Shown in pieces: positions 9,307 through 62,674 of a stretch of 64,000 bases of DNA. Position 1 is the stretch's first letter. Every line of letters begins with the position of its first letter. The translations under genes and the position numbers were made by a program. The stretch is from Acidobacteria bacterium 13_1_20CM_3_53_8. GTDB lineage: Bacteria; Acidobacteriota; Blastocatellia; Pyrinomonadales; Pyrinomonadaceae. The stretch spans positions 20,737 through 84,736 of the forward strand of contig MNJR01000101.1 in assembly GCA_001920415.1 (NCBI GenBank), read 5' to 3'. The notes beneath the pieces were generated by a model. The model was not told the DNA's origin and did no database searches. It saw only the letters and a list, made by a program, of their open reading frames with translations.

Positions 9307-9454
9307 GTCAGTACCGCCTGCGGTAGCGGGCGGGTGAAGAAGTAAAAAGTAAAAAGTAAAAAGTGAGAAGAAGCCAATCTTCTTATTTTTGCCTTTTGCC
9401 TTTTTACTTTTGACTTTGCTAACAGACCCGCCCGCTACCGCAGGCGGTACTGAC
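9307..9454. repeat. REP-like inverted pair enclosing heptamer arms
   Basis: A 29-base REP-like unit (9307-9335, GTCAGTACCGCC... GGCGGGT) is repeated in reverse at 9426-9454. Between them lies a second inverted repeat of AGTAAAA heptamers (9340-9366) and complementary words (9387-9415). The result is a nested palindrome between two convergent genes. Confidence 0.9.
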
Positions 9455-22896: not shown

Positions 22897-23032
22897 TAGG
22901 AGTTGCGCAGTTGAACAAGCATGTCAGTACCGCCTGCGGTAGCGGGCGGGTGTGGCTGCGACTAACGACCCGCCCGCTACCGCAGGCGGTACTGACTTTT
23001 GCTGCACTTTCCTATCAACTGCGTAACTCCTA
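22897..23032. mobile_element. 136-bp MITE-like element, copy 1 (non-coding)
   Basis: It is bounded by 18-bp terminal inverted repeats (TAGGAGTTGCGCAGTTGA and its near-perfect complement). Inside lies an inverted pair of 29-base REP-like units (from 22923, and ending 22996). The directly repeated pentamer GCTTC at 22892-22896 and 23033-23037 is a target-site duplication. The second pentamer overlaps the stop codon of the GH13 gene (23036). Length is exactly the same as copy 2 at 35515-35650, which lies in the opposite orientation. Confidence 0.92.
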
Positions 23033-27857: not shown

Positions 27858-27880
27858 AACGCTTTTCACTTTCAGAATTA

Positions 27881-28011
27881 AGGCAAAAGTAAAAAGGTAA
27901 AAGTGAGGCGAAAACCATCTTTAATTAAATTGCCTTCGTCCTTATCCCTTTTGACTTTTAACTTTTACCTTTTTACTTCTTCACCCACCCGCTACCGCAG
28001 GTGGTACTGAC
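27881..28011. repeat. Heptamer inverted-repeat element with a single REP-like end
   Basis: Arms of AAAAGTA/AAAAGGT words (27881-27904) and complementary CTTTTGA/CTTTTAC words (27949-27978) are followed by one 29-base REP-like unit (27983-28011), which has two substitutions relative to the common form. No matching REP unit is seen on the left. Confidence 0.85.
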
Positions 28012-31646: not shown

Positions 31647-34600
31647 TTAGAAGAGCAACTTCACGCGGTATTGAATCACACGGGCCGGGAGCGCCGCGTC
31701 GAAGCGACCGAACGAACCCGCATCGTCAATGTTGTTGTTGGGCACAGTGAAGGTCGTCTGGTTGAACAGGTTGAAGAACTCCATGCCGATCTGTAACCTC
31801 AGATTCTCACGGATAGCCGTGTTCTTGAAGACGGACATGTCTGTGCGAACGAAGCCCGGCCCCGTGAAAGTATTTCGCGCTAGAGTGCCAAAGCGTATCT
31901 GCTGACCCGCAGCGTTTACGACACACTCAGGCCCCGGACACGCACCAGCCGGGTCTCTGAATGCCGCCACGTTCATAAAGCGACCTGCCGGGACATTCGA
32001 GAACGGGTCTCCGATTTGTGTAGCGCGACGACCTGCGTTATTGCCGCTCACAACAGTAAACGGAAAGCCGGAGCGCCCGTTGACTATAAAGTTCAACTGC
32101 CAGCCGCTAGCTATCCTGTTCATTGCTCCGTGCGCGTCGCTCAAGTAGCGCTGCCCCCTTCCGAACGGCAAGTCTATTATCACGTCCGCAGACAGAAGAT
32201 GCCTGACATCCAGCGCCGAACGCCCCTCTTCGCAGGTGTCTGGGCAGAGCGGATTCTGCGGGCCGCCTTGCGTGCCGCGCCCTTCGCCTATGCCTTGGAA
32301 GACGCCCGTAGAAGTATCTGTGTTCTTTGAGAATGTGTAAGAGACTTGCCCCTGCACGTTATGAGAAAGCCGCTTCTGCAACTGCATCTGAAGGCCGTTG
32401 TAATCGGCCCGAGCCGCGTTGGTATATAAGCGGGCTGCAAGAGGAATGCCCAACGGGTTGCGCGCTTCTGCTGTGCCCGACCCACCTATGTCACGTGTCA
32501 CCAAGAGGTTACGCGTGCGATTGCCGACGTAGCCTATGTCGAAAGCCCAATCGTGCATGAATTGAACTTGGTACGTGATGTTGAACTCATGGACGTAGGC
32601 GGTGCGTTGCTGTGGGTCTTGACGAAAGACAGTAAGCGGACAATTTTGAGTGGGGTCCGTACAGAAGAATCCGGGCAAACTCAGCGCGGTCGGACTGACG
32701 ACCGGAACGTTCGGCGCGCCCGTTTGCAAGTTGAATACGCTACGCGGTGTCGAAGCGTCGAACGCATTGTTGTAGGTGACACTGTTCGTGAACGGCGGAT
32801 TGTTTACGAGCGGCGGTCGGTCGGTCGCGTCCAGCGTGTAGAGCAGGCCGTAGCCGCCTCGAATCACCATGTTGCGGTCTGCGCCGAACGAATAAGCGAA
32901 CCCTGCGCGTGGGCCGAAGTTGTTTCTATCAGCCTGTATGAGCGTGTCGCTTGAGCTACTAGCAACTATAACTGTGCGCGTCGCCGGGTCGTAGTTGCCC
33001 AAACGACCGTTCGCTTCATGCTGCGGCGGGAAATAATCCCAGCGCAAGCCCAGATTGAGCGTCAGGTTAGGATTGACTTTAAGATCATCCTGCACGAACA
33101 AGCCCAATTCCTGAGAGCGAAGGTTGAACGCGCCGCCCGGTACGCTGCCTCGGAAAAACTGTAACGACGCAACGTTGCGATCCAAAATGTTCGCCATTGC
33201 GTTGCCCGTGCCGCCAAACGCTATGCCGTTTGCATCAACGAAGCAAGCTGCGGGTGTGCCCGATCCAGCAGGGCACGCTGGATTCGGCCCCGTCGAAGGG
33301 CCATTGTCCGCGTAAGCGTAGTTGCCCTTCAATCCGCCCGTGCGCCCGCCGTCAATCGTATGCAGGTAGCGCAGTCTGTCTTCGCCTCCGAACTTGAAAG
33401 TGTTCCTGCCCCTGATGATCGTCATTGTGTCGGCGAAGTATGGATTCCTGCTGTTGACTATAAACGGGCCACCGTCGCCCGCGAACTCTACGAAGCCGTT
33501 GCCGAAGCCACCGACGAGCATAGAGCCTGATCGCTCGAAGCTTCCATCATTGACGTTCGCAACGCCTACGTCCGAAGCGAATGTGGCGCTGATGCCGCAC
33601 GCGCCGCCGACCGCGCAGTTAATGATGCCTATGTCGAGCTTGGTGAACCCGAAGCGCGCTTCGTTCAGCATTGTCGGGCTGAAAGTGTGTGTTTCAGTGA
33701 CGGCTATCTGGCGCGAGTTGCCGATTTCGTTTCCTGCGCCGAACCCTGCCGGAACTTCTGGGAAGAACGAGCCGCGAACGTTGCTCTGATTCTGGTAGCT
33801 GAAGCGACCGGAAAGCGTATCTGCATTGCTTAAGTGATGGTCAATCTTGATGTCGTAGTTGTTGATGACCTCACGAACTTCGCGCGTGGCGAAATAGTTG
33901 TTGTCGTTCTGGCCCGGATTGGTGCGCGGGAAATTCGGCAGCGGGAAGAGGTTGTAGAACTTCTGCGAGACGGGGCTAATCTGTGCCTGCGGGATGATGT
34001 TGCCGGGAAACGCCACGCCCGTAAGCGGATTGATTAGAGGTGCGGTGAACTCCGAAAAGTTTCCGGCTCTCATCAAAGCTGAAGGAACCGTTGAGCGTAT
34101 CGCTGCCGGTAGGTTGTTGCGACCGCCTAAGTAATCGAAGAAGAAGAACAGCTTGTTCTTAATAATAGGCCCGCCGACTGCGCCGCCGAACTCGTGAATC
34201 TGCTGCACGGCCTTCTTAGGAACTTGCGCGCCGGGTGTCAGCCGCGCATTGTTAATGTCGCGCGCCAAAATTGGGTGTGTAGCATTCAGCGCGGAGTTCT
34301 GTCCATAGTAATAGAGCGAGCCGTGAAAGTCGTTCGAGCCGGAACGGAAAGAGGTATTGACGACCGCGCCAGCCGCACGACCGACTTCAGCCGGTGGCAC
34401 GCTCGTCGTAACACGAAACTCAGCTATCGCATCCGGGTTGACATACACGCCGATTTGCCCGAACTGCGGTTCGTTATTATCCACGCCGTCAACCGAGAAG
34501 TTATTGTTGGTCGGGCGCTGGCCGTTGGCCGAGATTACCGAACCGCCGCTACGCGCGAAGCGTGCTGATTCGGTCGAACCGGCAGGATTACCCCCGCCCG

Positions 34601-35189
34601 GCCCTTGACCGCCCGCGTTCGGGTCGCCATTGTTATTTGAGCGCGCGTCCGAAAGAGTGCCTATTGTCACGCGCGAGACGCCGGGCGTGAGCGTGGCTAG
34701 CTGCGTGAAGTTGCGGCCAGAGAGCGGAAGCTCCGTGACCTCGCGCCCCGTTACGACGCTGCCGCGCTCGCTCTCTTCGGTCTGAACGAGCGGCGCGCCA
34801 GCTATGACCGTCACTTGGTTGCCAGTAATCTCGCCCGGCTCAAGCTTAACGTCTAGCGAAGTCTTTGTCCCGGTTTGCACCACTACGCTCTGCTGCAAGC
34901 TGGGCTTGAAACCGGCTGACGTAATCTTGACATTGTAATTGCCGGGTTCGAGTAGCGGCACCTCATATTCACCCTGACCGCCGCTCGTCGCAGTGCGTTC
35001 CGCGTTGGTCTCAGTGTTCGTGACCGTGACGGTCGCGCCAACCACAGCCGCGCCGTTGATGTCTTGAACGTTGCCGCTGATAGAGCCTTTATTGGTTTGC
35101 GCGAATGCCGAAAGCGCTAGAACCGATAGCAGACACACCAAGCAGCAGACCCGTGTGAACAGGTGCGCGAATCTCCTGAATGTAGTCAT
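31647..35189 (-). CDS. Oar-like TonB-dependent outer-membrane receptor
   Basis: This 1180-residue protein has a signal peptide ending LALSAFAQ and a carboxypeptidase-regulatory domain (ISGNVQDINGAAVVGATVTVTNTETNAERT). A plug with SGRNFTQLATLTPGV and ISANGQRPTNNNFSVDGVDNNEP follows, then a beta-barrel ending RVKLLF. It belongs to the same Oar-like family as 5730-9215 but the two are clearly diverged. It should sit in the outer membrane and take up or bind a large ligand, possibly a glycan or peptide. AAGAGG lies 6 bases before the ATG. A ROK-family repressor lies about 600 bases upstream on the same strand, which would fit sugar-responsive control, though no operator was identified. Confidence 0.9.
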   Translation of the reverse strand: MTTFRRFAHLFTRVCCLVCLLSVLALSAFAQTNKGSISGNVQDINGAAVVGATVTVTNTETNAERTATSGGQGEYEVPLLEPGNYNVKITSAGFKPSLQQSVVVQTGTKTSLDVKLEPGEITGNQVTVIAGAPLVQTEESERGSVVTGREVTELPLSGRNFTQLATLTPGVSRVTIGTLSDARSNNNGDPNAGGQGPGGGNPAGSTESARFARSGGSVISANGQRPTNNNFSVDGVDNNEPQFGQIGVYVNPDAIAEFRVTTSVPPAEVGRAAGAVVNTSFRSGSNDFHGSLYYYGQNSALNATHPILARDINNARLTPGAQVPKKAVQQIHEFGGAVGGPIIKNKLFFFFDYLGGRNNLPAAIRSTVPSALMRAGNFSEFTAPLINPLTGVAFPGNIIPQAQISPVSQKFYNLFPLPNFPRTNPGQNDNNYFATREVREVINNYDIKIDHHLSNADTLSGRFSYQNQSNVRGSFFPEVPAGFGAGNEIGNSRQIAVTETHTFSPTMLNEARFGFTKLDIGIINCAVGGACGISATFASDVGVANVNDGSFERSGSMLVGGFGNGFVEFAGDGGPFIVNSRNPYFADTMTIIRGRNTFKFGGEDRLRYLHTIDGGRTGGLKGNYAYADNGPSTGPNPACPAGSGTPAACFVDANGIAFGGTGNAMANILDRNVASLQFFRGSVPGGAFNLRSQELGLFVQDDLKVNPNLTLNLGLRWDYFPPQHEANGRLGNYDPATRTVIVASSSSDTLIQADRNNFGPRAGFAYSFGADRNMVIRGGYGLLYTLDATDRPPLVNNPPFTNSVTYNNAFDASTPRSVFNLQTGAPNVPVVSPTALSLPGFFCTDPTQNCPLTVFRQDPQQRTAYVHEFNITYQVQFMHDWAFDIGYVGNRTRNLLVTRDIGGSGTAEARNPLGIPLAARLYTNAARADYNGLQMQLQKRLSHNVQGQVSYTFSKNTDTSTGVFQGIGEGRGTQGGPQNPLCPDTCEEGRSALDVRHLLSADVIIDLPFGRGQRYLSDAHGAMNRIASGWQLNFIVNGRSGFPFTVVSGNNAGRRATQIGDPFSNVPAGRFMNVAAFRDPAGACPGPECVVNAAGQQIRFGTLARNTFTGPGFVRTDMSVFKNTAIRENLRLQIGMEFFNLFNQTTFTVPNNNIDDAGSFGRFDAALPARVIQYRVKLLF

Positions 35190-35495
35190 AACTGGCCTCT
35201 TAGGGTGAATCGTAACTGTTGGATTGCGCGCCCGCCCTACAGGGAATAGAGCGAGAGCAACTACTTCACACTAAAACCGAAATTCGGCCAAAGGTTAAGA
35301 CAGCTAGCCTTGGCGCTAGATTTTTACGGAAAGAATTTTTAATTGAACTTTCGCAAGAGCCTGATGCGAAAGTTTGTTGCCTGACCGAACGAAGTATATG
35401 CAAATTTTGGATAGTGTCAACAGATTTTCCGCATTCCAAGAAGAAAAATGAGCATTTCAGTGCTGAGCATCACCAAAATTCATAAAGCCAAGCAT

Positions 35496-35760
35496 CTTAG
35501 CGAGCTTATCTCTTTAGGAGTTACGCAGTTGACAGAAAAGCGCAAGCCAAGTCAGTACCGCCTGCGGTAGCGGGCGGGTCTCTGCCGCACCAATCACCCG
35601 CCCGCTACCGCAGGCGGTACTGACCTGTTCGTTCAACTGCGTAACTCCTACTCTTATCTTTGCGCCTTTGCGTGAAACAGCAATTCTCTTGATGCTCAAG
35701 AATTATGTGAACTGTAGGTTCACGCAAAGGCGCAAAGGGAAATGCTTAAGAAGCGCTAAG
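35496..35760. repeat. Inverted-repeat element with CTTAGCGAGCTTA ends, interrupted by the MITE
   Basis: The arms contain CTTTGCGCCTTTGCGTGAA (35659 on) and TTCACGCAAAGGCGCAAAG (35719-35737), with outer ends CTTAGCGAGCTTATC (35496) and CTTAAGAAGCGCTAAG (35760). Without the inserted MITE and one target duplication it is about 124 bp, close to the intact copy at 57072-57190. The 603-bp gap 35190-35792 otherwise shows nothing recognisable. Confidence 0.85.
35515..35650. mobile_element. 136-bp MITE-like element, copy 2 (non-coding)
   Basis: The ends are perfect 18-bp inverted repeats, TAGGAGTTACGCAGTTGA and its complement. Two 29-base REP-like units face each other inside (from 35551, and ending 35624). 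It is flanked by the direct pentamer CTCTT (35510-35514 and 35651-35655). Removing the element and one pentamer gives a sequence identical over 29 bases to the complement of 57162-57190, which is an uninterrupted copy of the target. Confidence 0.95.
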
Positions 35761-35792
35761 GAGTTTATATCTATTCGCGGCTTTGGATTGAT

Positions 35793-36983
35793 TTATGCGG
35801 CGTTCGCCGAAGAGAATTTGGTAGCGAGGACTAGGCTGAGCGCGCCCATCATCGTAGGGCGCTCGCCCAGCGTAGAGGCGGTAATATGTGCGGAAGGAAG
35901 GCCGCGTCGTATGCTTCGCGCGATTGTTTCGTTCAGCGCGTCCGAGACCAGATGCCACGCGCGCGTGATTGCGCCGCCTACGACAACTGCTTGCGGGCTG
36001 AGACCGACAACGAGGTTGGAGATTCCTATGCCAAGATAGTGCGCTGTCTCTACGAGCGCCCTCTGTGCTGCCTCTTCACCAGCAAGCGCTCGCTCGACGA
36101 CAAGAGACAAACTAATTTTGTCATCAGAGACGGCAGAGTATTTCCTGTATCGCGCCGACGCAGCCCGTCCAGAAGAGAATGCTTCCCAGCAATCAAGGTT
36201 TCCGCACGAACATGCTATTGGGCCGTCCTGGCCTATGACCATGTGGCCGAACTCGCCCGCAGCGCCGTACTCGCCCCTGTACACCTGCCCGTCAAAGACT
36301 ATGCCTGTGCCTATGCCTTCGCCTACGAAGACCATTATGAAGTCGCGCACCTCGCTCACCTCTGGCCGCCCGAACCAAAGCTCTGCGAGCGCAGCCGCGT
36401 TCGCATCGTTATCAATCATCACGGGCAGCCCCGTTGCAGCGGAAATCTCGTCCGCCACGCCTACGTCCTGCCACTTGAACCAGGGAATATAGACCGCGCG
36501 CCCTTTGCACGGATCAACCAGACCTGGAAGACTCACGCCCACGCCTTCAACAGAGCCTTTGCCTTTGCGATTTATCTCTCGCACCTGTTCGAGCACGCGC
36601 GAGATAGTGCGCTCGTAAGACGGGTCTGTTGCAAACTCTGTTCGTTCGAGCACGCGACCCGCCAGATTGCAGGCAGCGACGTTGGTTAACGTAGGCGTGA
36701 TGTCAACGCCTATGGCGAAGATGCCTGTGGTGCGCAGGCGCAAGAGCGTGGGGCGACGACCTCCGGTTGATTCGCCCTCGCCTATCTCCTGTATCAACCC
36801 GTCGGCCTTCAACTCCTCAACGATGGTCGAGACGGTAGAGCGTTGTAGCGCCGTCTCTCTTGAAATCTCTGCGCGCGATATTGGCTCGCGCTCGCGCACG
36901 TAGTTCAAGACGATCTGCCGGTTGATGTCGCGTATGGTGCTAAGGCGCGCCGCCTGAGCCTTCTTCAGATCAATTCGTCGCAA
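35793..36983 (-). CDS. ROK-family transcriptional repressor (NagC/XylR-like)
   Basis: This 396-residue protein has an N-terminal winged helix-turn-helix (NRQIVLNYVREREPISRAEISRETALQRSTVSTIVEEL, about residues 20-58) and a ROK sugar-binding domain. Domain features are GVSLPGLVD, FVGEGIGTGIVFDG, GAAGEFGHM and the zinc motif CSCGNLDCWE. Relatives bind a sugar or sugar phosphate and release DNA. I keep the TTG start at 36983, which has GGAG 8 bases upstream and no ATG nearby. The nearest possible targets are the downstream TonB receptor and its own gene. The sugar importer operon lies 30 kb away, so a link to it is speculative. Confidence 0.9.
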   Translation of the reverse strand: MRRIDLKKAQAARLSTIRDINRQIVLNYVREREPISRAEISRETALQRSTVSTIVEELKADGLIQEIGEGESTGGRRPTLLRLRTTGIFAIGVDITPTLTNVAACNLAGRVLERTEFATDPSYERTISRVLEQVREINRKGKGSVEGVGVSLPGLVDPCKGRAVYIPWFKWQDVGVADEISAATGLPVMIDNDANAAALAELWFGRPEVSEVRDFIMVFVGEGIGTGIVFDGQVYRGEYGAAGEFGHMVIGQDGPIACSCGNLDCWEAFSSGRAASARYRKYSAVSDDKISLSLVVERALAGEEAAQRALVETAHYLGIGISNLVVGLSPQAVVVGGAITRAWHLVSDALNETIARSIRRGLPSAHITASTLGERPTMMGALSLVLATKFSSANAA

Positions 36984-37346: not shown

Positions 37347-39179
37347 TCATCTGTTCGATGCGCCTTTGCCCTGTGTAATGGTAAGAACTCTGTCCACACC
37401 CGGCACATCGAAAGTTTCTGTCGCGCCGTTGGGCCAATGTATCTCCAGCCTATCAACTTTCGTTGCCGCGCCTAGCCCGAAATGAAGTCGCGGATCGTTG
37501 TACGATGCGAAAACGCTCCCTGTGGTCAAGTATGCAAAAGCGCCCGTAGCATCGCGCGGGCTTTTTTTGGAAACGTCGCCAATGAGATGCAATTCAAGCC
37601 AGTGGCCTTGATTGGCCGTCACATTCCTGAGAATGGTCGGCGCGGCGTCCATGTTATTCATCACAACGTCCACTCTTCCATCTCCATCAAGGTCGCCCAC
37701 AGCAAGACCACGAGTGCACCAACTTTCGGCAAGGCCGCTCGACGGCGCTGCGCTGACGCGCTCAAACTTTCCGTTCTTCAAATTCCTGAACAGAAGCGGC
37801 TGCTGCTCGTAGCTAGTTCCCCACTGGTGCTGGTCAACAGACGGATAGACGTGGCCGTTAGCCACAAAAATATCTTTCCAACCGTCGTTGTCGAAATCTA
37901 TGAAGTCAGTTCCCCAACCCAAAAACGGGTAGGTTGATTCGCCATGCCCTGCCTGAAAAGTAACGTCCGTAAAGTTCCCACTGCCGTCGTTGTGATAGAG
38001 CACGTTTGAATCATCGGAAAAGTTCGTGATGTAGAAATCAACGCGCCCATCGTTATCGTAATCGCCTACGGCCAAGCCCATGCCAGCCTGCTCGCGCCCG
38101 TTCTCATTGAGCGCAACGCCCGATGGATAGCCAACTTCTTCAAATGTCCCGTTGCCCTTGTTTATGTATAGCAGCTTTGGCGTCGAATCGTTGACGACCA
38201 TCAAATCCAGCAGATCGTCTTCGTCAACGTGCACGAACGCCGAAGAAAATCCGTAATATCTCTGCGGGTCGTTGACGCCCGCCTTGACGCTCACATCCTC
38301 GAAAGTGCCGTCCGGCTTTTGGTGATAAAGAGTGTCCGGCTCGCCGCGAAGACCGCGCGGGCCGCAAAGCACGGGCGTGCCGCGAAACTGGCAGAAGTTC
38401 TGGCCTACGCTGCCGGGACGGCCAGCCTCGCTGGGATTCGGAGGAAGATTATTAAGATCGAATTCGACGTAGCCCGGCACGAACAGGTCTAATCTTCCGT
38501 CGCCATCGTAATCTCCCCACGTAGCGCCCTCGCTCCATCCTTTGCGCGCTACGCCCACGCGCTCGGCCACATCCGTGAACGTGCCGTCGCCGTTGTTGTG
38601 ATAAAGACGCGAGATGCCGTAGTTGCCTACAAAAATGTCTGGCCTTCCATCGTTGTCATAATCGCCAACGGCCACGCCCATGCCCCAGCGTTCGTTGGCA
38701 ACGCCCGCTCTATCCGTCACGTCCTCGAACTTCCAGTTGCCCAGATTATGATAGAGCGCAGCATGCGGAGCTTTGCCGCCACTCTTCATTATGTCAATGG
38801 TCGAGCCGTTCAAGATGTATATGTCCGGCTGTCCGTCGCCATCGTAATCGAAGATAGCTATGCCGCCCGATACGCCTTCAAGTATGTAATTCTTCGCGGA
38901 GCTTCCCGACAGGTGCTTGAATTTTGCGAGCGCCGTCTTCTGCGTCATGTCTTCAAAGACAAGGGGCGCGCGCGGGTCTGTGATGCCGACCGTGCGGCGA
39001 GAAGTGTAGTTAATGGTCGCGCCCGTTGATACGCCGCCCATCCCTTGCGATTGAGTGGGCGATGGCTTCGGCTGAGTATTCTGCGCAGACGAGACTAGCG
39101 GCATGAAAATCAGTAGCGAGATTGCAGAGAGCGCGAGCGCTTTGAATGAGCGTGCTCGTAGGGGTTTCAGTTGAAACAT
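37347..39179 (-). CDS. Secreted CRTAC1-like VCBS/ASPIC-UnbV beta-propeller protein
   Basis: This 610-residue protein has a signal peptide (about 1-32), about seven calcium-binding FG-GAP/VCBS blades and a C-terminal ASPIC/UnbV domain. Blade examples are FDYDGDGQPDIYILNG, VGDYDNDGRPDIFVGNYG, WGDYDGDGRLDLFVPGY and VGDYDNDGRVDFYITN. The UnbV end includes LHFGLGAATKVDRLEIHWPNG. The DxDxDG loops bind calcium in known relatives. The function in bacteria is not established; a surface or periplasmic binding protein is likely. A related gene lies directly upstream on the same strand but is broken. AGGT lies shortly before the ATG at 39179. Confidence 0.88.
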   Translation of the reverse strand: MFQLKPLRARSFKALALSAISLLIFMPLVSSAQNTQPKPSPTQSQGMGGVSTGATINYTSRRTVGITDPRAPLVFEDMTQKTALAKFKHLSGSSAKNYILEGVSGGIAIFDYDGDGQPDIYILNGSTIDIMKSGGKAPHAALYHNLGNWKFEDVTDRAGVANERWGMGVAVGDYDNDGRPDIFVGNYGISRLYHNNGDGTFTDVAERVGVARKGWSEGATWGDYDGDGRLDLFVPGYVEFDLNNLPPNPSEAGRPGSVGQNFCQFRGTPVLCGPRGLRGEPDTLYHQKPDGTFEDVSVKAGVNDPQRYYGFSSAFVHVDEDDLLDLMVVNDSTPKLLYINKGNGTFEEVGYPSGVALNENGREQAGMGLAVGDYDNDGRVDFYITNFSDDSNVLYHNDGSGNFTDVTFQAGHGESTYPFLGWGTDFIDFDNDGWKDIFVANGHVYPSVDQHQWGTSYEQQPLLFRNLKNGKFERVSAAPSSGLAESWCTRGLAVGDLDGDGRVDVVMNNMDAAPTILRNVTANQGHWLELHLIGDVSKKSPRDATGAFAYLTTGSVFASYNDPRLHFGLGAATKVDRLEIHWPNGATETFDVPGVDRVLTITQGKGASNR

Positions 39180-39308
39180 CGGATTACCTAATGAAGTTAT
39201 CGGATTTGTATCTTTAATGTTTGAAGCTTCGGGTGAACAGGATGCTCATCTCAAAGGATGAATGAACATACGCGACCGCGCAATGGCGTGTCAACGCGAG
39301 CAAGAGAT

Positions 39309-39421
39309 AAGGTAAAAGGCAAAAGTGTAGGCACGCCTTGCAGGCGTGAATTAAAAATTAAAAATCAGAGGTGAAGGCTTTAACTTCACTTTTGCCTTTT
39401 ACCTTTTTACTTTTGCCTTTT
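39309..39421. repeat. Heptamer inverted-repeat element with CACGCC hairpin
   Basis: Arms of AAAAGGT/AAAAGGC words (39309-39327) and complementary words (39388-39421) flank a short hairpin CACGCC-TTGCA-GGCGTG (39332-39348). Similar hairpins are at 41258-41274, 55492-55508 and 56873-56890. The element ends 3 bases before the stop codon of the upstream reading frame. Confidence 0.85.
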
Positions 39422-39423
39422 CT

Positions 39424-41183
39424 TCATCTTTCTTCTCGAATCGTCATGTAGCGATCAATCGCAGGGTTCACGGCGCGCTGCGATTTTCCGCCCGGCCAGC
39501 GCACTTCGATGGATTTCACGCCCGCAGATTGGCCCAGGCCAGCGATTATCCTTGGATCATTCGACGAAATGTAACTGCCCGCGCTCGATACGTCAAAAAC
39601 TTGCTGGCGATTGCTTGCGTCCGTCACTATCACACGCGCGCCCAATCCCTGACGATTGGATTTCGTGCCAGCGAGCGAGATTCCAATCCAGTGATTGCCA
39701 GTCCCTTTGTTGCGGAAGATTACGGGCGTGCTATCGAGTACGCCGAGCACAATGTCAACCTGTCCGTCGTTGTTTAGATCACCGAACGCAGCGCCGCGCG
39801 CCGCGAATGGTTTCTCATCAGAAGCGGCGTCTGCTTGTACTTCAAATAGTTAGACGTGCGCTCGATTGTATCTAGCACGTGGCTCTGAGCGACAAAAATG
39901 TCCCGCAGTCCATCGTTGTCGGCGTCAATGAACTTTGTGCCCCAGCCCGAATAGAGCAGAGTGATTTGGCCGACGCCCGCAGTGTTCGTAGTATAAGTGA
40001 AAGATGCGTCGCCGTTGTTGTGATAGAGCGGGTAAGTCTCATTCGAGAGCGCCGTGATAAAAATATCCGGGTAGCCGTCGTTATCGTAATCCGCAACGTC
40101 AACGCCCATGCCCGCGAAAGTCTTTCCATTCTCGTCGTAACCAACGCCGCTCAATTCCGCCATCTCTTCAAACGTCCCGTCGCCTTTGTTCCTGTAAAGA
40201 CGCTGGCGCACGCTGTCGTTCGCAACCACTACGTCCACCCAACCGTCGTTATCCAAATCCGCGAAGGCCACACCCAATCCCTTGCCGGTCGCGTCAACAA
40301 TACCTGCGCGCGCGCTAACGTCCTCGAACGTGCCGTCCGATTTTTGATGAAGCAGAACATTTGATGCCCCTTTGAAATTATCTGGATGGCAGTAAGCCCT
40401 GAAACCCGGTCGCGTGTCGCCGCAGTAAATCGCGCCGCGCTCGAAATCCCAGTCCATGTATCGCGCTACGAAAATATCAAGCCGACCGTCGTGGTTGTAG
40501 TCGAACCAGCCCGCGCTCGTTGACCACCCAGTAACGCCCGCGTTCAATTTTTTAGTCACGTCCGTGAACGTTCCGTCGCCGTTATTGTGATAAAGCGTTG
40601 TGCCGCCGTAAGCTGTGACGAATAGATCAATGAAACCATCGTTATCGTAATCGGCAGCAGCCACGCCCATTGTGTAGCCGTCGCCCCGAACGCCTGCGCG
40701 CTCCGTCACATCTTCAAACGTTCCGTCCGTTTTCTGATGATATAAACGATTCCAGTATTTCGGGTCGCGCTTGTCCGGCATAGCCCCTCGCGGCATAGGG
40801 TCATCGAGTCGCGCTCCGTTCGTAAAAAAAAGGTCTGGCCGACCATCGTTGTCGTAATCCAACATTGCAACGCCGCTGCCCATTGATTCCGGCAGATATT
40901 TTTGGGACGTAAACGATGCGTTGTGCTTGAAGTTCAAGCCCGATGAAGCTGTAACGTCCGCGAACGTCACGGTCGAAGGCGATTGCGGCGCAGAAGGCGG
41001 CGGTGGACGGCTCGGCTCCGCACCGCTGTAAGCTCTTCCCGTCCCCTGCCGCGCTGGAGAAGGTGATGGCTGTTGTTGCTGCGCGCGTGCGTGGAGAGAT
41101 GGGAAGTTGAGTGCGCCCGCAACGGCGAGCAATGCGAAGAGCAGAAGGATAGAAACGCGCAAAAATTTCATTGATTGGAGCAT
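39424..41183 (-). pseudogene. CRTAC1-like VCBS/UnbV gene disrupted by frameshift and small deletion
   Basis: Two frames together make one CRTAC1-like protein. The first (39774-41183, 469 codons) has a signal peptide and six or seven DxDxDG blades and breaks off at KYKQTPLLMRNHSRRAALRSVI. The second frame continues KPFAARGAAFGDLNNDGQVDIVLGV and then the UnbV end with IAGLGQSAGVKSIEVRWPGGK to 39424. Relatives have about 15-25 more residues between the RN of LLMRN and the ARGAAFGDL segment, so a small deletion as well as a frame change is indicated, near 39790-39850. This could be a true decay event beside an intact paralogue (37347-39179) or a sequencing or assembly error. If natural, the truncated protein would lack its last propeller blade and UnbV domain. 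Confidence 0.85.
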
Positions 41184-41257
41184 CAGTGCCGCCTGCTATA
41201 AGCCAAACAGAGAAGAAGAAAGGCGTAGAGGCACTCGCCCATTTTTAATTTATCATT

Positions 41258-41274
41258 CACGCCTGCAAGGCGTG
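41258..41274. repeat. Isolated CACGCC/GGCGTG hairpin
   Basis: CACGCC-TGCAA-GGCGTG lies upstream of the broken CRTAC1-like gene. It is the same small hairpin that occurs inside the heptamer elements at 39332, 55492 and 56873, in inverted orientation, but here without heptamer arms. The rest of 41184-41413 shows nothing recognisable. Confidence 0.6.
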
Positions 41275-41413
41275 TGCTATTTTACTGCTCACACGGCTTC
41301 TAGCAGGCATCGCTGATGAAGCCTTAAGAATCGACTACGCAATTTTCCGACGAAATGAGAACGAGGGAGGAGACAGCAACACTTTCATCAAGCGCATTCT
41401 AAACTTTAACCTT

Positions 41414-42424
41414 TCATTCGTCCAACCTTCGTTTCGCCTCGTCAATCAGTTGATTGTTTCTCTCGTAAGAAATCTCTCGCGTCATGCCAGCATCCGTTTC
41501 AAGCTCAGGCGGGTAGATATGTTTTTGATAAACCGGGTAAGCCTCTGTTCTTAAGTGAGCGAGCATGTGATGACCGCGACGCGATGCGCGTTCGTGTCTG
41601 AGCGCCGTAATATCAACGGGAGCGACAACGATTCTCTCGCCCGGCCCCGGACTCGCCTGAGCCAACAACCTCCCATCATAATCAACAACCTGACTCCCGC
41701 CCGGCCATGAATAAGGCGGGTAATGCTTCAGGCTCGCGCCCTGATTCGCAGCAACCACGTAAGCAATGTTCTCAATCGCCCTGCAACGGTTCACAACCGT
41801 CCACCAGTCCATAGGCTCGGTCGCGCCCCAGGGGTCCATGTACGCCGAGACGCGCACCAGAACTTCAGCGCCGTTTGCAGCAAGCTGTCGAATCGCTTCA
41901 GGGAAAATCCAGTCGTAGCAGATAGCGCAACCAATCCGTCCAATCGGCGTGTCGGCCACAGGGAACATCTGTTCGTCGTAGCCTTCCAGGTCGTGCGGGC
42001 TTGCGTGGACTTCATACGGAATCCACGTATTCACCTTTCGGTATTTATAAAGAATTCCTGTTGGCCCAATCAGGCAAGTCGTGTTGAAGACAACATCAGG
42101 CCACTTCGGATCAACTTCCAGCATAGAGCCGCTCTGAATGTATATGTCATGCTCACGCGCTTTCTGTTCAAGAAGTTCTGTGTGCTCGTTCGGAATTTTT
42201 ACAGCGAGCTTTTCAATCAACTCCACAGCCTTCTCAAAAACCGGCGCAGCGTGCGCAAATTCTGGAAAGACTACCAATCGAACGGGCAGAAACGGCGCGC
42301 TCCCCGCAACAGCCGAGTCAATCATGCTCAGCATTCTGTCTGTATTAGCCCGCATCCCTCGACGCTCAAGCGGATTCGGCAAATCCGTCTGACAAGCAGC
42401 AACGGAATATCTTATGTGTTCCAT
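41414..42424 (-). CDS. Carbon-nitrogen hydrolase (nitrilase superfamily)
   Basis: This 336-residue cytoplasmic enzyme has the catalytic triad of the nitrilase superfamily: E55 in VVFPEFAHA, K130 in YKYRKVNTW and C169 in GCAICYDWIFPE. The fold is the alpha-beta-beta-alpha sandwich, and the length is typical of amidase-type members that hydrolyse a C-N bond. The substrate is unknown; the sequence is closer to amidases than to true nitrilases. The ATG at 42424 follows the end of a CAGTTTT heptamer element with only a few bases between, and no ribosome site is evident. The gene is 121 bases downstream of the TPR-VCBS gene on the same strand. Confidence 0.9.
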   Translation of the reverse strand: MEHIRYSVAACQTDLPNPLERRGMRANTDRMLSMIDSAVAGSAPFLPVRLVVFPEFAHAAPVFEKAVELIEKLAVKIPNEHTELLEQKAREHDIYIQSGSMLEVDPKWPDVVFNTTCLIGPTGILYKYRKVNTWIPYEVHASPHDLEGYDEQMFPVADTPIGRIGCAICYDWIFPEAIRQLAANGAEVLVRVSAYMDPWGATEPMDWWTVVNRCRAIENIAYVVAANQGASLKHYPPYSWPGGSQVVDYDGRLLAQASPGPGERIVVAPVDITALRHERASRRGHHMLAHLRTEAYPVYQKHIYPPELETDAGMTREISYERNNQLIDEAKRRLDE

Positions 42425-42428
42425 AAAA

Positions 42429-42562
42429 GCAGTTTTGAGTTTTTAGTTTTCAGTTTTCAGCTAGTATCTCAATAATTCAAGGCTAGACTCTAAAGCTTTT
42501 AGTTTGTATCCTCCAAGCCAAGTTCTTAATCTGAAAACTGAAAACTCAAAACTGAAAACTGT
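42429..42562. repeat. Heptamer inverted-repeat element (CAGTTTT/CTGAAAA words)
   Basis: The left arm 42429-42461 (GCAGTTTTGAGTTTTTAGTT onward) is complementary to 42530-42561. The right arm overlaps the end of the TPR-VCBS gene, whose last residues (SFQF) and TGA stop at 42546 are made of the heptamer words. Confidence 0.9.
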
Positions 42563-45500
42563 TTCCTATCACCAATCTCGGTACTTGTTCCGTTACGACG
42601 CGCGTGTTGTACCGCTCTATGTAAGATTGCCTCTCGTCCGTCATAGGATAAGTTTCCGGCGGCGAGTAAGGATACCTGCTCATGCCGTGAAACGGGAGCG
42701 GCGCGACCTGATCCGGGCTGGCGGAGTTGATGTCCATCTCTTTGCTGAAACCGTCTGCGTAGAGCAGAAACGTGCGCGTCCAGCCCGCCGGCAATGGCGG
42801 CAGTTGCGTGGCGTCGAACGATAAACTTATCTCGTCGCCGGGACGCGAGATTACGAACATATCGTCCGAAGATTTCAGAAGCTCGCGCACGTCGCCTGTG
42901 CGTGTGTAATGGCCGGGCATGACTTTCCAGGGCGAAGTGAATGACACTTTTTGATAATCATACGTGAACGGCTCTCGTCCGTCGGGCGTTATCTCTTCGG
43001 AAAATCCGCGCCACTGAAGTTCCGCCACAACTGGGTCAAGCCGCATCATCTTGAACGGAGCGTCGCCGTCCGAAGTGTCAACGAGAATCTGATCCCAGTA
43101 GATTCGCATGCTGGTTACAATGCGCACCTCGCGGCTCGCGGATAAAAATTTTCCAGTGAGATCAACCGTTACGGTCTGCGGCCTGCCTACTGGGATGCCT
43201 ATGTCTTCTATGACTGTCTTCCAGTTGCCGTCCGCGTCTCTGACTTGAAGAGCGGGCAACTTCATCTCCGCGCCGTGCTGCGAGGCGGCCACGTTGTCGC
43301 TAGACCAGGCGTAATCAGTCCAGCCCGTCAGAAGCAGAAGCGTTCGAGCGTTTCGATTCTGATTGTTCTCACTAAGCTTTAGAGTTAGCGTGTGCTCGTC
43401 AGCGTAGCCGCGTGGTCGGTTTAGCCTAAACCCGTCAACATACTTGCGGTCGAGTTTAAGAATGCGGTCTAAAACGTTTCGTCCTCTGTCATCGAATGCT
43501 GTGAGCGGAGCGCGTGCGCCCTCTGTGGTGTAGAGCTTGAAAGGCGGCAGAGGCGGATCAATCATGCCTTCGTTCGGATAAACGGCGACGCCTGCGGGGT
43601 GCGCAACCGCTATCAACTGCAAACGGTCAACGTAGAGCGTCTCTTCCAATTCATTCGTCACGCGCAATTCGTAACGACCGTTGCGCTCTCGCAGTTGATC
43701 GCCGCGAATGCGAACGTACTCGTCCGGGTCTGGCGTGTTGTAGCGACCGGGTTCTTCCAAATAACCCATCTCGCCGCCGCCCATAAAATCTGTGATGAAT
43801 TCGAAACGCTCGCCGTTCCAAGTGTAAAGATATGGACAGGACGAAGGCTTGCGGTCTAGCTCTGTGATAGAGAGGCTGAGAGCGCGGCTCGTTCCCCTGT
43901 TACGATTGCTCGCGGCTTCGCCAAACTCCGTCTCGGCCTGAACAATCCCGGCAGGCCAGAGCACGCGCACGGCGTCGGGCGCACGGCGTTGGCCCAATCC
44001 GAAAACAATGTCGGCAGGCGCTGGCGCTGGACACGCCGAATATTTTTCTAACTTTTGCCACAAACTTCCCGCGCGCTCTTCAACTTTTGCGCCGACGCCA
44101 CTGCGATTGCTCACCTTGCCAGAGAGTCGCACGCGCACAGAATGGTTTCGATTCCCGCCATCGTTGCGCACGAATCTCAATTCGTCTCTGTCTGAAATCA
44201 CAAGAATATCTGTGTCGCCGTCGCCGTCAACATCACCCGACGCAAGACCGCGATGCGAACCGCCGGGACGCGGAAACCAGTAGTTCAAATCATCGCCGAT
44301 AGCACGCGACCTCACGTCGTCCCACCTGTTTTCGCCCACGTTGCGCCACACGCGCAAGCCTCTGCTTGAATCGGTGATCAAGTCGAGCAGGCCGTCGTTG
44401 TCGTAATCCAGAAACTGCGCGCCCATTTCAGAGGATGTGCCGGGCGGCGCTTCGTGTATGGTGAAATGGCCGCGACCATCACTGATTGCAAAGATGCCGG
44501 GCATGCTAGCTCTGCCGAAGAAGAAGTCTGTGAATCCGTCTTTATTAACATCGCCTGCCGCGACGCTGACGAATTTCCCGCTAATGCTCAGTCCAACTTC
44601 CTGAGCCACGTCGCGGAAACTTCCGTCGCGCATGTTGCGAAAAAGCTGAGGCTGCGCGTCGTAGTTCACAACGAGCAGGTCAATATCTCTACGATTGTCG
44701 AAATCCGTTGGGACTATAGCCACAGCATGACCGTTTGAGCCTTTCACTTTCGCAGCATCCGTTATGTCCGTGAAAGTTCCGTTGCCGTTGTTACGCAGTA
44801 ATAGATTCGGCGCGCCTTTTAAGTTTTGCAAATAATCTTGAGTTGGATTCGAGAGCGCGTGAGGCAAAGGGTTTGGCCCAAGCAATGAAGAGATTTCCAC
44901 GCCGCGCAAATCCGCCAGTCCTGCAATAAAAATGTCCAAGTCACCATCGTGGTCAACGTCAACGAACGCGACTGAGACTGAGAGATAAGGATAATCGGGA
45001 ATGGCTGCTTCCGTTATGCGCTCAGAAAATTTTCCGCCGCCATCGTTATGAAAGAGCGCGCACTTGCCGTAGCGCAGCACGAACAAATCCTCTCGCCCGT
45101 CGTTGTCGTAATCGCCCGCCACAGCGCCCACGTTGACGCCAATAGTTGCAGCGCCTAAAGCTCCAGAAGAAGAAGCGGCATCAACGTACCCGCCGCCGTC
45201 GTTTCTGAAGAGTCGCAATGAATTCGGTGTCAGCCTGAGCAAGTCAAGGCGGCCATCGCCATCGAAATCGAAAAGCAGCACGCGGCTGCCGAACGGAGCG
45301 GCAAAGCGGTTGATGAGCGCATCATCCGGTCGAATCACGATTGCTGTCTGGCTTGTTGCAACTCTTCTATTTCGTCCTCGCGCGACTCTTCTTTCTCCGC
45401 TTCTTCTGTTCGTTACTGTCGTACTGAACGTGCGCGCCGTCGCATCGTTGAAAACGACGGGCGGCGTTGCGCGATCAACCAGTCCGTCTTCCGCTCCTGT

Positions 45501-46238: not shown

Positions 46239-46245
46239 AGAAAGA

Positions 46246-46360
46246 AAGTCAAAAGTAAAAAGGCAAAAGTAAAAAGGGATAAGGACTAAAGCATTTTAAT
46301 AAAAGCGGTTTCCGCCTCACTTTTGCCTTTTTACTTTTACCTTTTGACTTCTTTTTGCCT
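46246..46360. repeat. Heptamer inverted-repeat element (AAAAGTA/AAAAGGC words)
   Basis: The left arm 46246-46281 and right arm 46317-46358 are built of complementary AAAAGTA and CTTTTTA type words. It fills the gap between the hypothetical secreted protein and the TPR-VCBS gene. Confidence 0.88.
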
Positions 46361-48362: not shown

Positions 48363-49257
48363 AGGAGTGAGAGCAAGATTTTTATTTCATGGTTACATTG
48401 GCCTTTTGATAATCGCCGTCGCAGAAGTTCTGTTGTTTGCGGGGAATCGCGTTGTTGGCGTGTGGTTCACGCCGATTGTGTGGACGGGTTATGTGCTCTT
48501 TGTTGACGCGCTCTGTTATAGATTGAAAGGGCGTTCGCTCATGGTGACGGACAGGCTTGAGATGCTGGTCGTCTTAGTGGTTTCAATAGCGTGCTGGTGG
48601 CTTTGCGAATTCTACAACGCGCCCAGATTCTGGAGATCGGATTTGGAATTGTGGTGGCACTACCACAGCCTCGTTCCTAACCCGTTCCTGCGCCGCGTCG
48701 GCTACGATTGGGCGTTTGCGACGATCTTCCCGGCGCTCTTTGAGACTGCCGAAGTGTTCGGAGCCGGAGTCTTCGCGCGGTTGAAAACTTTCGGAGCGAT
48801 GAAGCTTTCGCGCGCGTCTCTTATCCTTTTAATCGTCATAGGCGCAATCACGGCGATCCTGCCGCTGATAATAATCTCGCCCTGGCTAGCACCGCTCCTC
48901 TGGCTCTCTTTCATCTTACTGCTTGACCCGCTCAATCATTTGCGCGGATGGCCTTCAATCACGGGCGACGCAATGCGTGGCAGTTACAGAAGACTCGCTT
49001 GCTTACTAGCAAGCGGTTTTGTCTGCGGCATTCTGTGGGAGTTCTGGAACTACTGGGCGATCTCGAAATGGACTTACACTGTGCCGTATCTTGGCGATGT
49101 GAAAATTTTCGAGATGCCAGTGCTAGGCTATCTGGGCTTCCCGCCTTTCGCCGTTGAGTGTTGGGCCATGTACATCTTTTGCCGCTCACTGCTCAATAGT
49201 TCGTCCGCCGGTGCTCGCCCGCAAGATGATGGGAGCATTATAGCGACTGCGAAGTAA
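48355..49257 (+). CDS. Integral membrane protein of unknown function
   Basis: This 300-residue protein has about seven hydrophobic segments, for example LFHGYIGLLIIAVAEVLLF, WFTPIVWTGYVLFVDALCY, LVVLVVSIACWWLCEFYN, LILLIVIGAITAILPLIII and LLWLSFILLLDPLNHLRGWP. Charged and tryptophan-rich motifs (WLCEFYNAPRFW, GILWEFWNYWAISKW) recur in two halves, which suggests an internal duplication. I do not recognise the family. The ATG at 48355 lies in a heptamer array that also offers GGAGG-like ribosome binding. It is 25 bases after the channel gene on the same strand, so the two are probably one operon; a shared role in membrane homeostasis is only a guess. Confidence 0.8.
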   Translation: MKEGVRARFLFHGYIGLLIIAVAEVLLFAGNRVVGVWFTPIVWTGYVLFVDALCYRLKGRSLMVTDRLEMLVVLVVSIACWWLCEFYNAPRFWRSDLELWWHYHSLVPNPFLRRVGYDWAFATIFPALFETAEVFGAGVFARLKTFGAMKLSRASLILLIVIGAITAILPLIIISPWLAPLLWLSFILLLDPLNHLRGWPSITGDAMRGSYRRLACLLASGFVCGILWEFWNYWAISKWTYTVPYLGDVKIFEMPVLGYLGFPPFAVECWAMYIFCRSLLNSSSAGARPQDDGSIIATAK

Positions 49258-49390
49258 AGGCAAAGGAAAGGCAAAAGGTAAAAGTAAAAAGGCAAAAGTT
49301 AGGGGAAGCCAAATTTTTATTAAAGCGGTTTCAGCCTTCCTTTTGACTTTTTACTTTTACCTTTTGCCTTCTTCAGCAGGCGGTACTGAC
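49256..49390. repeat. Heptamer inverted-repeat element with a REP remnant
   Basis: Arms of AAAAGGT/AAAAGTA words (49256-49300) and complementary words (49338-49373) are followed by the last 15 bases of a REP-like unit (GCAGGCGGTACTGAC, 49376-49390). It starts at the stop codon of the membrane protein gene. Confidence 0.85.
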
Positions 49391-55453: not shown

Positions 55454-55582
55454 AAAGGCAAAAGGTAAAAGTAAAAAGGCAAAAGTGTGGACACGCCTTG
55501 CAGGCGTGAATTAAAGATTAAAAATCAGAGTTGAATACTTTGTCTTAACTTTTGCCTTTTACCTTTTTACTTTTGCCTTTTA
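55454..55582. repeat. Heptamer inverted-repeat element with CACGCC hairpin
   Basis: Arms of AAAAGGT/AAAAGTA/AAAAGGC words (55454-55487) and complementary words (55549-55582) enclose the CACGCC-TTGCA-GGCGTG hairpin (55492-55508). It ends 2 bases before the stop of the ATP-grasp gene. The rest of the gap 55178-55453 shows nothing recognisable. Confidence 0.88.
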
Positions 55583-55584
55583 TT

Positions 55585-56811
55585 TTATTCTATTCTCTCA
55601 AGCGGCGGAACGATGGCGATGAAATCTTCTGCGAAGCGGCGTGCGTAATCGTCCAGAAGAGCGCGTACGCGCTTTGGGTCTGGAGAGTTGACTATGAGAC
55701 CAACGTGATGCGGCTTTCGCACGCGATAGAAAATTTCCGTGTCTGTGTAAGCCCTTGTGTCCGGCTCTTCCTGCCGCGCCAGCGAGAGTGCGATTCCGCC
55801 ATAATCATTTCTAGCGTCGGGCAACTGATACGCGCCTTCCCGTCCTGCCAGTTCTATCTTCGCCCATTCGCGCCAGAGATTTATGCCGCTTGCCGCTTCC
55901 AGAGTTTCCGCTAGAAACGCGCCGCCGACTCGCGCAGCTATTTCCAGAAAGTAGAAGCGCTCGTCCTCTTCCGATAGTATGAACTCTGCGTGAGCCGCGC
56001 CCCTTTCCAGACCGAGCGTTTTCACAATCTTCTGGTTGAGTCGTAAAAGCTCGCGTTCGTCGCGTGAACTGTGCGCGACCGTGTAAGAGAGAAAGACTCC
56101 GCCATGATGAGCAACGTCCATTGGCGGGCGACCGTACACGTTCACGCCCGCAAAGATCACACGACCATCTTTCACGAGCGAGTCCACGTGATATACACGC
56201 CCGCGCACGAACCGTTCTAACAACCAGTAGCCTGAGCGCTCTCTTAATCTTTCGCGCGCGTCCAACTCATCAATCGCACGCCATACGGCTTCGGCTTCAT
56301 CAAGCTTCTTAATCCCTACAGCCGACACATCAGAGCGCGGCTTCAAGACCCAGGGCGGCTCTACACGATTCATGAATTCGCCAACGTCGTTGTAGTTAAG
56401 CGCGTGCACAAATTCTGGAACATTAATGCCAGCTTCCGAAGCCTCGATTCGCATAGCGAGCTTGTCACGAAATGTTCTGGCTTGCGTGCCCGTCATTCCT
56501 TCTATGCGAAGATGCTCGCGTATCAATCCTGCGTTGATTACGTCAAACTCTTCTAGCGCAACAAGGCGATTAATCTTCTGCTTGCGAGCGAATCGGCTGA
56601 CTATCTCTGTGTACTGCTCTGTCGTTGCGTCGTCCGGCGCGGCCACGAAATCGTCAAGACTCTCTAGCGGCCATTCATGACCGGCATTCTTCTCTTTCGT
56701 AATGAGGACGACGCGAGCGCCCTGCCGTTTGCACTCGACCAAAAATTCCACGCCCTTGAAGTAGCTTGCAAGACAGACTATCTGCAAAGGTGTGTCGCTC
56801 TGCTCGCTCAT
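55585..56811 (-). CDS. ATP-grasp ligase-like protein
   Basis: This 408-residue protein has an ATP-grasp fold: an N-terminal Rossmann-like part (IVCLASYFKGVEFLVECKRQGARVVLITKE), the lysine-bearing WVLKPRSDVSAVGIKKL, the hinge WLLERFVRGRVYHVDSLV, and the magnesium-binding FYFLEIAARVGGAFLAE. It resembles carbamoyl-phosphate-synthase-type and D-ala-D-ala-type peptide or carboxylate ligases of unknown substrate. It should couple a carboxylate to an amine or thiol with ATP in the cytoplasm. ATG 56811 (MSEQSDTP) is preferred to 56835. No biosynthetic partner gene is adjacent, so a specific pathway cannot be assigned. Confidence 0.82.
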   Translation of the reverse strand: MSEQSDTPLQIVCLASYFKGVEFLVECKRQGARVVLITKEKNAGHEWPLESLDDFVAAPDDATTEQYTEIVSRFARKQKINRLVALEEFDVINAGLIREHLRIEGMTGTQARTFRDKLAMRIEASEAGINVPEFVHALNYNDVGEFMNRVEPPWVLKPRSDVSAVGIKKLDEAEAVWRAIDELDARERLRERSGYWLLERFVRGRVYHVDSLVKDGRVIFAGVNVYGRPPMDVAHHGGVFLSYTVAHSSRDERELLRLNQKIVKTLGLERGAAHAEFILSEEDERFYFLEIAARVGGAFLAETLEAASGINLWREWAKIELAGREGAYQLPDARNDYGGIALSLARQEEPDTRAYTDTEIFYRVRKPHHVGLIVNSPDPKRVRALLDDYARRFAEDFIAIVPPLERIE

Positions 56812-56828
56812 AAAATCATCCGCTGAAG

Positions 56829-56961
56829 AAGGCAAAAGTAAAAAGGTAAAAGTAAAAAGGCAAAAGTGTGGACACGCCTTCGTAGGCGTGAATTAGAGAT
56901 TAAAAATTAGAAACAAAAGCTTTCGTCTTAACTTTTGCCTTTTACCTTTTTACTTTTGCCC
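56829..56961. repeat. Heptamer inverted-repeat element with CACGCC-type hairpin
   Basis: The left arm 56829-56866 and right arm 56928-56961 are complementary AAAAGTA/AAAAGGT arrays. Inside is CACGCC-TTCGTA-GGCGTG (56873-56890). It lies upstream of the ATP-grasp start, in the 441-bp divergent gap 56812-57252. Confidence 0.88.
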
Positions 56962-57071
56962 TTTATCTTCTCCTGCCCTTGCAATTGATTAATGAGTGAT
57001 GGTAAAGGCGGCTGCTGTGTATAATCAAGCTATAATCCGCGCTGCTTCTATTTCGTGCGCGTTTCAAAACT

Positions 57072-57190
57072 CTTAGCGAGCTTAAGTATTTCCCTTTGCG
57101 CCTTTGCGTGAACCCTCAATTCTCTCTAAGCTCAAGATTGATGTGAATTGCAGGTTCACGTAAAGGCGCAAAGATAAGAGATAAGCTCGC
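57072..57190. repeat. Intact inverted-repeat element with CTTAGCGAGCTTA ends
   Basis: CTTAGCGAGCTTAAG (57072 on) and ATAAGCTCGC (57190 end) enclose facing CCTTTGCGCCTTTGCGTGAA (57093-57112) and TTCACGTAAAGGCGCAAAG (57155-57173) arms. It is the uninterrupted counterpart of the MITE-split element at 35496-35760. Confidence 0.87.
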
Positions 57191-58819: not shown

Positions 58820-58924
58820 GTCAGTACCGCCTGCGGTAGCGGGCGGGTGATGTACGGCTCTGTGGCTCGCCTGTCGTCTCAATTATCATGATGCTACCCG
58901 CCCGCTACCGCAGGCGGTACTGAC
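58820..58924. repeat. REP-like inverted pair
   Basis: One 29-base REP-like unit (58820-58848) faces another (58896-58924). Unlike the two MITE copies, it lacks the TAGGAGTTACGC terminal repeats. It could form a strong hairpin downstream of the ligase gene. Confidence 0.9.
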
Positions 58925-62472: not shown

Positions 62473-62485
62473 CGCTTCTCTTTTA

Positions 62486-62586
62486 AGTAAAAAGGCAAAA
62501 GGTAAAAGGCAAAAGTTCAGAGATGAATATTTGTCCTACCTTTTGCCTTTTTACTTTTGCCTTTTTACTTCTACCTTTTTACTTCT
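62486..62586. repeat. Heptamer inverted-repeat element (AAAAGGC/AAAAGGT words)
   Basis: The left arm 62486-62516 and right arm 62537-62585 are complementary heptamer arrays. It lies between the TIGR03118-family gene and the decarboxylase gene. Confidence 0.88.
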
Positions 62587-62674
62587 GCTCCTTGACTACC
62601 GTTAACCTGTCGCACTATCTTCGCTCGCGGCGCGCGTTTATTTTTCCTTCAAAATTTCATGGAGTCTTTTGGGA

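Follow-up and report, generated by a model that had tools for sequence, protein, structure and literature searches.

A 136-bp Miniature Element with the Ends of an IS701_2 Insertion Sequence and a REPIN-like Repeat Nested at Its Center in a Pyrinomonadaceae Genome

ISAba11 is an insertion sequence (IS) of ∼1.1 kb that is assigned to the IS701 family and is characterized by a 5-bp direct repeat (PMC7326120, PMC7885321, PMC7760358). Classical IS701 elements are 1400-1550 bp long and make duplications of exactly 4 bp (PMC2266710). The Nezha MITEs of cyanobacteria are probably moved by ISNpu3-like elements (cited in PMC3049150), and degenerate tags are described in some REPIN families (PMC3733652). 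The element studied here, a 136-bp MITE with a REPIN-like center, can be compared with each of these systems. The ISs of its group resemble ISAba11 in being 1044-1102 bp long with a 5-bp duplication, a comparison made by description and not by sequence; the MITE differs in that its duplications are 5 or 6 bp. With classical IS701 there is a likeness in the DDE transposase, which is distantly related (NF033540, 92.6 bits, below the cut-off of 150), but both the length of 1044-1102 bp and the duplications, 5 bp for the IS and 5-6 bp for the MITE, lie outside that definition. By size and duplication, we file the mover as ISAba11-like (IS701_2) and not as classical IS701.

Like Nezha and MITEAba12 (PMC6382973), the element is short and noncoding, has inverted ends that match those of an IS, is present in many copies, and is flanked by target duplications, although it differs in its REPIN-like center, and the comparison with Nezha is again one of description. 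The center recalls REPIN/RAYT systems (PMC3116915, PMC3733652) in its two inverted palindromic REP-like units with a variable spacer, in its >100 copies, and in a Y1-type transposase gene with repeat copies on both sides. Here, however, the units start with GTCAG rather than GTAG, followed by a TACCGC-CT-GCGGTA stem, and much of the population is nested in elements with DDE-type ends. In the open-access literature that we searched, neither MITEs of this IS type nor REPINs lying inside a MITE were the subject of any paper.

The window, the whole stretch of DNA that we analyzed, comprises 64,000 nucleotides, G000:C122:20737-84736, from Acidobacteria bacterium 13_1_20CM_3_53_8. An initial annotation had described in it a 136-bp MITE with perfect 18-bp terminal inverted repeats (TIRs) and CTCTT on both sides, and on rereading this description is exact. 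The features at the locus, together with the empty site, are as follows.

35495-35766, plus strand: host repeat interrupted by the MITE, ∼131 bp without the insert, boundaries approximate
35510-35514, no strand: left target-site duplication CTCTT
35515-35650: MITE, 136 bp, between the CTCTT duplications
35515-35550, plus strand: MITE arm A, 36 nt, 18-bp TIR TAGGAGTTACGCAGTTGA plus subterminal CAGAAAAGCGCAAGCCAA
35551-35624, no strand: REPIN-like element nested in the MITE, 74 nt, with a 16-nt loop between inverted REP-like arms GTCAGTACCGCCTGCGGTAGCGGGCGGGT of 29 nt each
35625-35650, plus strand: MITE arm B, 26 nt, with the right 18-bp TIR at its end
35651-35655, no strand: right target-site duplication CTCTT
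57072-57190, minus strand: host-repeat relative without the insert, serving as a paralogous empty site

The TIR TAGGAGTTACGCAGTTGA is exact at both ends, and the center (35551-35624) reads GTCAGTACCGCCTGCGGTAGCGGGCGGGT, the 16-nt loop, and then the reverse complement of GTCAGTACCGCCTGCGGTAGCGGGCGGGT. As single-stranded DNA, the MITE has a folding energy of −62.8 kcal/mol, whereas shuffled sequences average −21; this corresponds to a z of −14.5, and the structure is far from chance. Long minus-strand ORFs lie on either side (31647-35189 and 35793-36983), and the 136 bp contain no transposase gene. The element is a MITE, as first described, but not a simple one, since its center is a separate REPIN-like palindrome; it is a nested structure in which a MITE carries a second, apparently independently mobile repeat. 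Further along the window, the minus-strand coding DNA at 37863-45131 contains numerous repeats, of direct repeat families D3, D6, and D7, that encode DNDG-type (FG-GAP/VCBS-like) motifs.

Removal of the MITE together with one CTCTT yields GCGAGCTTATCTCTTATCTTTGCGCC, and the minus-strand repeat that ends at 57190 has exactly this sequence. The host repeat is an imperfect palindrome around CTTTGCGCCTTTGCGTGAA with dozens of genomic copies, and the joined flanks, used as a query, give 75 matches in the same genome, many of which continue across the join. In 16 of the 28 uninterrupted copies that we fetched, the 26-bp join is exact, and all but one of the other 12 carry it with 1-5 changes. These copies confirm the empty site proposed in the initial annotation, which is well supported, though it is a paralogous site, in a different copy of the host repeat, and not an allelic one. 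The suggestion that the repeat at 57072-57190 might be unrelated at its ends fails, since the relationship extends to either side of the join. A further MITE copy (C75:180761-180896) likewise lies in a copy of the host repeat.

A search for other copies, as the annotation had proposed, showed that this genome holds 24 complete ones, 134-216 bp long, with the same ends and the central palindrome. Exact 5-6-bp duplications flank 17 of these (18 of 25 when a 103-bp copy that lacks the palindrome is counted), while random 5-mer pairs at the same spacing matched 3 times in 3600 trials. The duplication, first given as 5 bp, is CTCTT here and is either 5 or 6 bp across copies. A second complete copy lies in the window and carries its own REPIN.

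22897-23032, minus strand: second MITE copy, 136 bp, duplication GCTTC
22923-22996: REPIN inside the second copy

The 103-bp copy (L073, G000:C154, ending at C154:11750) has related ends, the duplication GAATG, and no REPIN, and it resembles 103-104-bp MITEs of the relatives G007, G014, and G027.

Pairs of copies are up to 99.3% identical, and their flanks are ∼49% alike, which is the random level. Unrelated flanks around near-identical copies imply transposition, and segmental duplication, which the annotation had named as the alternative source of such copies, is thereby excluded. The MITE has thus inserted with target duplication, as was claimed from the start, and the duplications, the empty site, and the sister copies all support this. 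The near identity of copies with unrelated flanks also suggests fairly recent movement. Arm lengths of exactly 36 and 26 nt and the position of the REPIN are shared by all 24 copies, so that the nest moves as a unit. The best explanation for these elements, which we regard as very probably correct, is a non-autonomous miniature of an ISAba11-like (IS701_2) IS that captured a REPIN-like doublet and spread with it as a unit.

The nested repeat is of a RAYT-associated type. The 15-nt start of the REPIN arm has 137 and 143 matches on the two strands of this genome, compared with 0 and 0 for the reversed control, and the REPIN-like palindrome is commoner outside this MITE than inside. Two examples outside the MITE lie in the window.

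9307-9454, no strand: REPIN, 148 nt, with a AAAAGTAAAAAG-type loop that is also found in some MITE copies
58820-58924, no strand: REPIN, 105 nt

On contig C23, a 169-aa Y1_Tnp ORF with an N-H-A-H motif (C23:1980-2489) is flanked by REPINs near C23:1872 and C23:2500, and a gene between two repeat copies is the arrangement known for RAYT genes. The profile scores of this RAYT-like protein are weak (NF047646, 25.6 bits, cut-off 80; PF01797, 25.8 bits, cut-off 23). REPINs of this type occur widely in the family, and a decayed MITE-REPIN nest is present in another genus (G027:C274:2714-2848). A separate inverted-repeat module, AAAAGTAAAAAGGCAAAAG / CTTTTGCCTTTTTACTTTT, recurs in the window and makes up the loop in some of the REPINs; its sites are 918-1043, 9340-9420, 27873-27981, 39295-39437, 46239-46353, 49256-49373, 55455-55597, 56822-56976, and 62485-62587.

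We surveyed the 48 paired REPINs in contigs C1-C49, about one third of all, with one mispaired row left out. This MITE holds 11 of them, a second inverted-repeat family holds ∼20, and ∼17 lie in neither, which places roughly two thirds inside one or the other element. MITE-borne REPINs are mostly 72-76 nt long and free ones mostly 91-96 nt. The association between size and context gives a Fisher p of ∼2 × 10−6, a value that overstates the number of independent events since the copies are related by descent; moving one borderline REPIN between classes leaves the picture unchanged. The second family has ends TATAGCGG/TATTACGG. Its members are ∼150 bp long, have ends TATAGCGGTTCTCACTTG or TATTACGGTTTGCAATTG, and carry the same REPIN near the center; examples in this genome are loci L200-L215, L219, L226-L230, L233-L234, and L241-L251. 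The two DDE_3 (IS630-type) loci of this genome, considered as a source for the second family, have no such ends, and no transposase was found for this family. At G000:C14:6783-7464, a second-family copy (REPIN at 7075-7148) lies between two DDE_Tnp_1 gene fragments and apparently interrupts the gene.

From these observations, one might instead propose that REPINs entered MITE centers repeatedly, for example through a RAYT-like enzyme that favors hairpin loops, and not by one capture per family. The presence of a REPIN near the center of at least two unrelated inverted-repeat families of this genome and of similar elements in relatives would fit such a course, as would some loop types that are common to MITE-borne and other REPINs. 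The invariant arm lengths of this MITE, 36 and 26 nt, argue against it, as does the mostly short form of the MITE-borne REPINs, which is distinct from that of most free ones, and we consider repeated entry unlikely. For this MITE, we infer a single capture from the constancy of the arms and not from an otherwise identical REPIN-less MITE. Among the 24 copies, four loop classes are found in both orientations while the arms stay constant; the loop has thus changed orientation, probably through recombination at the inverted arms or through template switching there.

The same data allow a finer reading, to which we give about even chances, in which the REPINs are split. The longer form (91-96 nt) would be free and flank the RAYT-like gene, and the shorter form (72-76 nt) would be cargo of two unrelated inverted-repeat families, multiplied by their transposases, with its center flipped or exchanged between copies.

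The initial annotation held that the MITE has no transposase gene and depends on an enzyme supplied in trans, and an IS with identical ends in a relative supports this. A search for the 18-bp end covered 60 genomes of relatives. In G007, a related member of the Pyrinomonadaceae, two inverted 18-bp ends bound a 1044-bp IS (G007:C79:76464-77507). Both ends are identical to the MITE TIR, the duplication is CATTG, and a 331-aa ORF scores 372 bits against NCBIfam NF049921 (transpos_IS701_2), above the cut-off of 250. The IS with these ends, which the annotation had expected to name the family, therefore names it as IS701_2. DDE-type motifs are found in the transposase at DDSTLDK, FDGWY, and EQYHRGIK. 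The same IS is present in JANDLT010000005.1, a Pyrinomonadaceae MAG, and G007 also holds 124-bp MITEs with ends identical to those of the IS and 5-6-bp duplications. Further members of the IS701_2 group in relatives are 1002-1102 bp long with ends TAGGACTTACGCA, several with 5-bp duplications; related ISs with ends TAGGASTTACGCA have duplications such as ATATA, AGTAA, and AGTAT. The arms of the MITE have no clear similarity to the G007 IS outside the 18-bp ends. When the genome collection was searched with the transposase, only three loci were returned, one of which is the G007 IS itself, and a search of solved structures with the same sequence gave no match. The IS1634 family, which was considered for the 5-6-bp duplications, was rejected on a negligible profile score (12.3 bits, cut-off 100).

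The exact 18-bp end occurs in G007, G014, and G036, all of the same family as the window genome. None of the other 395 genomes, which were drawn across the phylum, contains it, and we take it to be lineage-restricted on that account. In the assembly that carries the window, protein and profile searches revealed no IS701_2-type transposase, and none of the single MITE ends that we read in this genome opens into an IS body. Because these searches found none, the mover has probably disappeared or is encoded in the few per cent of the genome that are missing from the assembly. As no matching transposase accompanies the MITE in its own genome, past insertion is supported rather than present-day mobility.

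In principle, the MITE could be moved by another DDE transposase that is resident in this genome and tolerant of these ends, and not by the ISAba11-like type. Eight DDE_Tnp_1 matches are present in this genome, none of the IS701_2 type, and the near-identical MITE copies suggest fairly recent movement, both of which would suit a resident enzyme. Against this, paired TAGGASTTACGCA ends are missing from the resident loci, where the best we saw is a lone weak end that carries two mismatches, and none of the matches to the MITE end across the genome adjoins these loci, which makes a resident mover a very doubtful proposition. The PF01609 transposases of this genome were rejected as movers since their loci have no matching pair of ends. 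A scheme in which the mobile unit is the REPIN alone, moved by the RAYT-like enzyme with the TAGGAGTTACGCA arms as incidental flanking DNA, could draw on the far greater abundance of the REPIN core and on the RAYT-like gene between two REPIN copies, but we give it almost no credence, as the duplications at the outer ends already refute it for the 136-bp unit: in 18 of the 25 copies, exact 5-6-bp duplications lie directly next to the 18-bp ends, which is unexpected for single-strand RAYT-type transposition, and relatives have both REPIN-less MITEs with the same ends and an IS with exactly these ends.

We therefore return to the ISAba11-like miniature with a captured doublet. In the proposed mechanism, a DDE transposase acting in trans would recognize the 18-bp ends and insert the whole unit at 5-6-bp staggered cuts; from the identity of the ends in the relative, an ISAba11-like IS probably supplied this enzyme in the present genome. 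An ancestral MITE probably acquired the RAYT-associated REPIN-like doublet between its 36-nt and 26-nt arms, after which the MITE-REPIN nest spread as a single unit. The REPIN center has later been exchanged or flipped at its 29-bp inverted arms, probably by recombination or template switching. A large share of the REPIN population here would in this way have been multiplied by MITE transposition and not on its own.

The MITE itself is of a known kind; the REPIN nest and the share of REPINs carried in this manner are the part that a specialist might find new. The locus provides a clean case from the Acidobacteriota, in which the insertion and its empty site are accompanied by sister copies and by a relative's IS with matching ends. 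If the split between free and MITE-borne REPINs is true, repeats that move by different transposition chemistries are stacked and spread together. Our results suggest that REPIN-carrying MITEs can inflate REPIN copy number, for which RAYTs alone are usually held responsible, and this inflation is relevant to studies that treat REPIN populations as RAYT-maintained.
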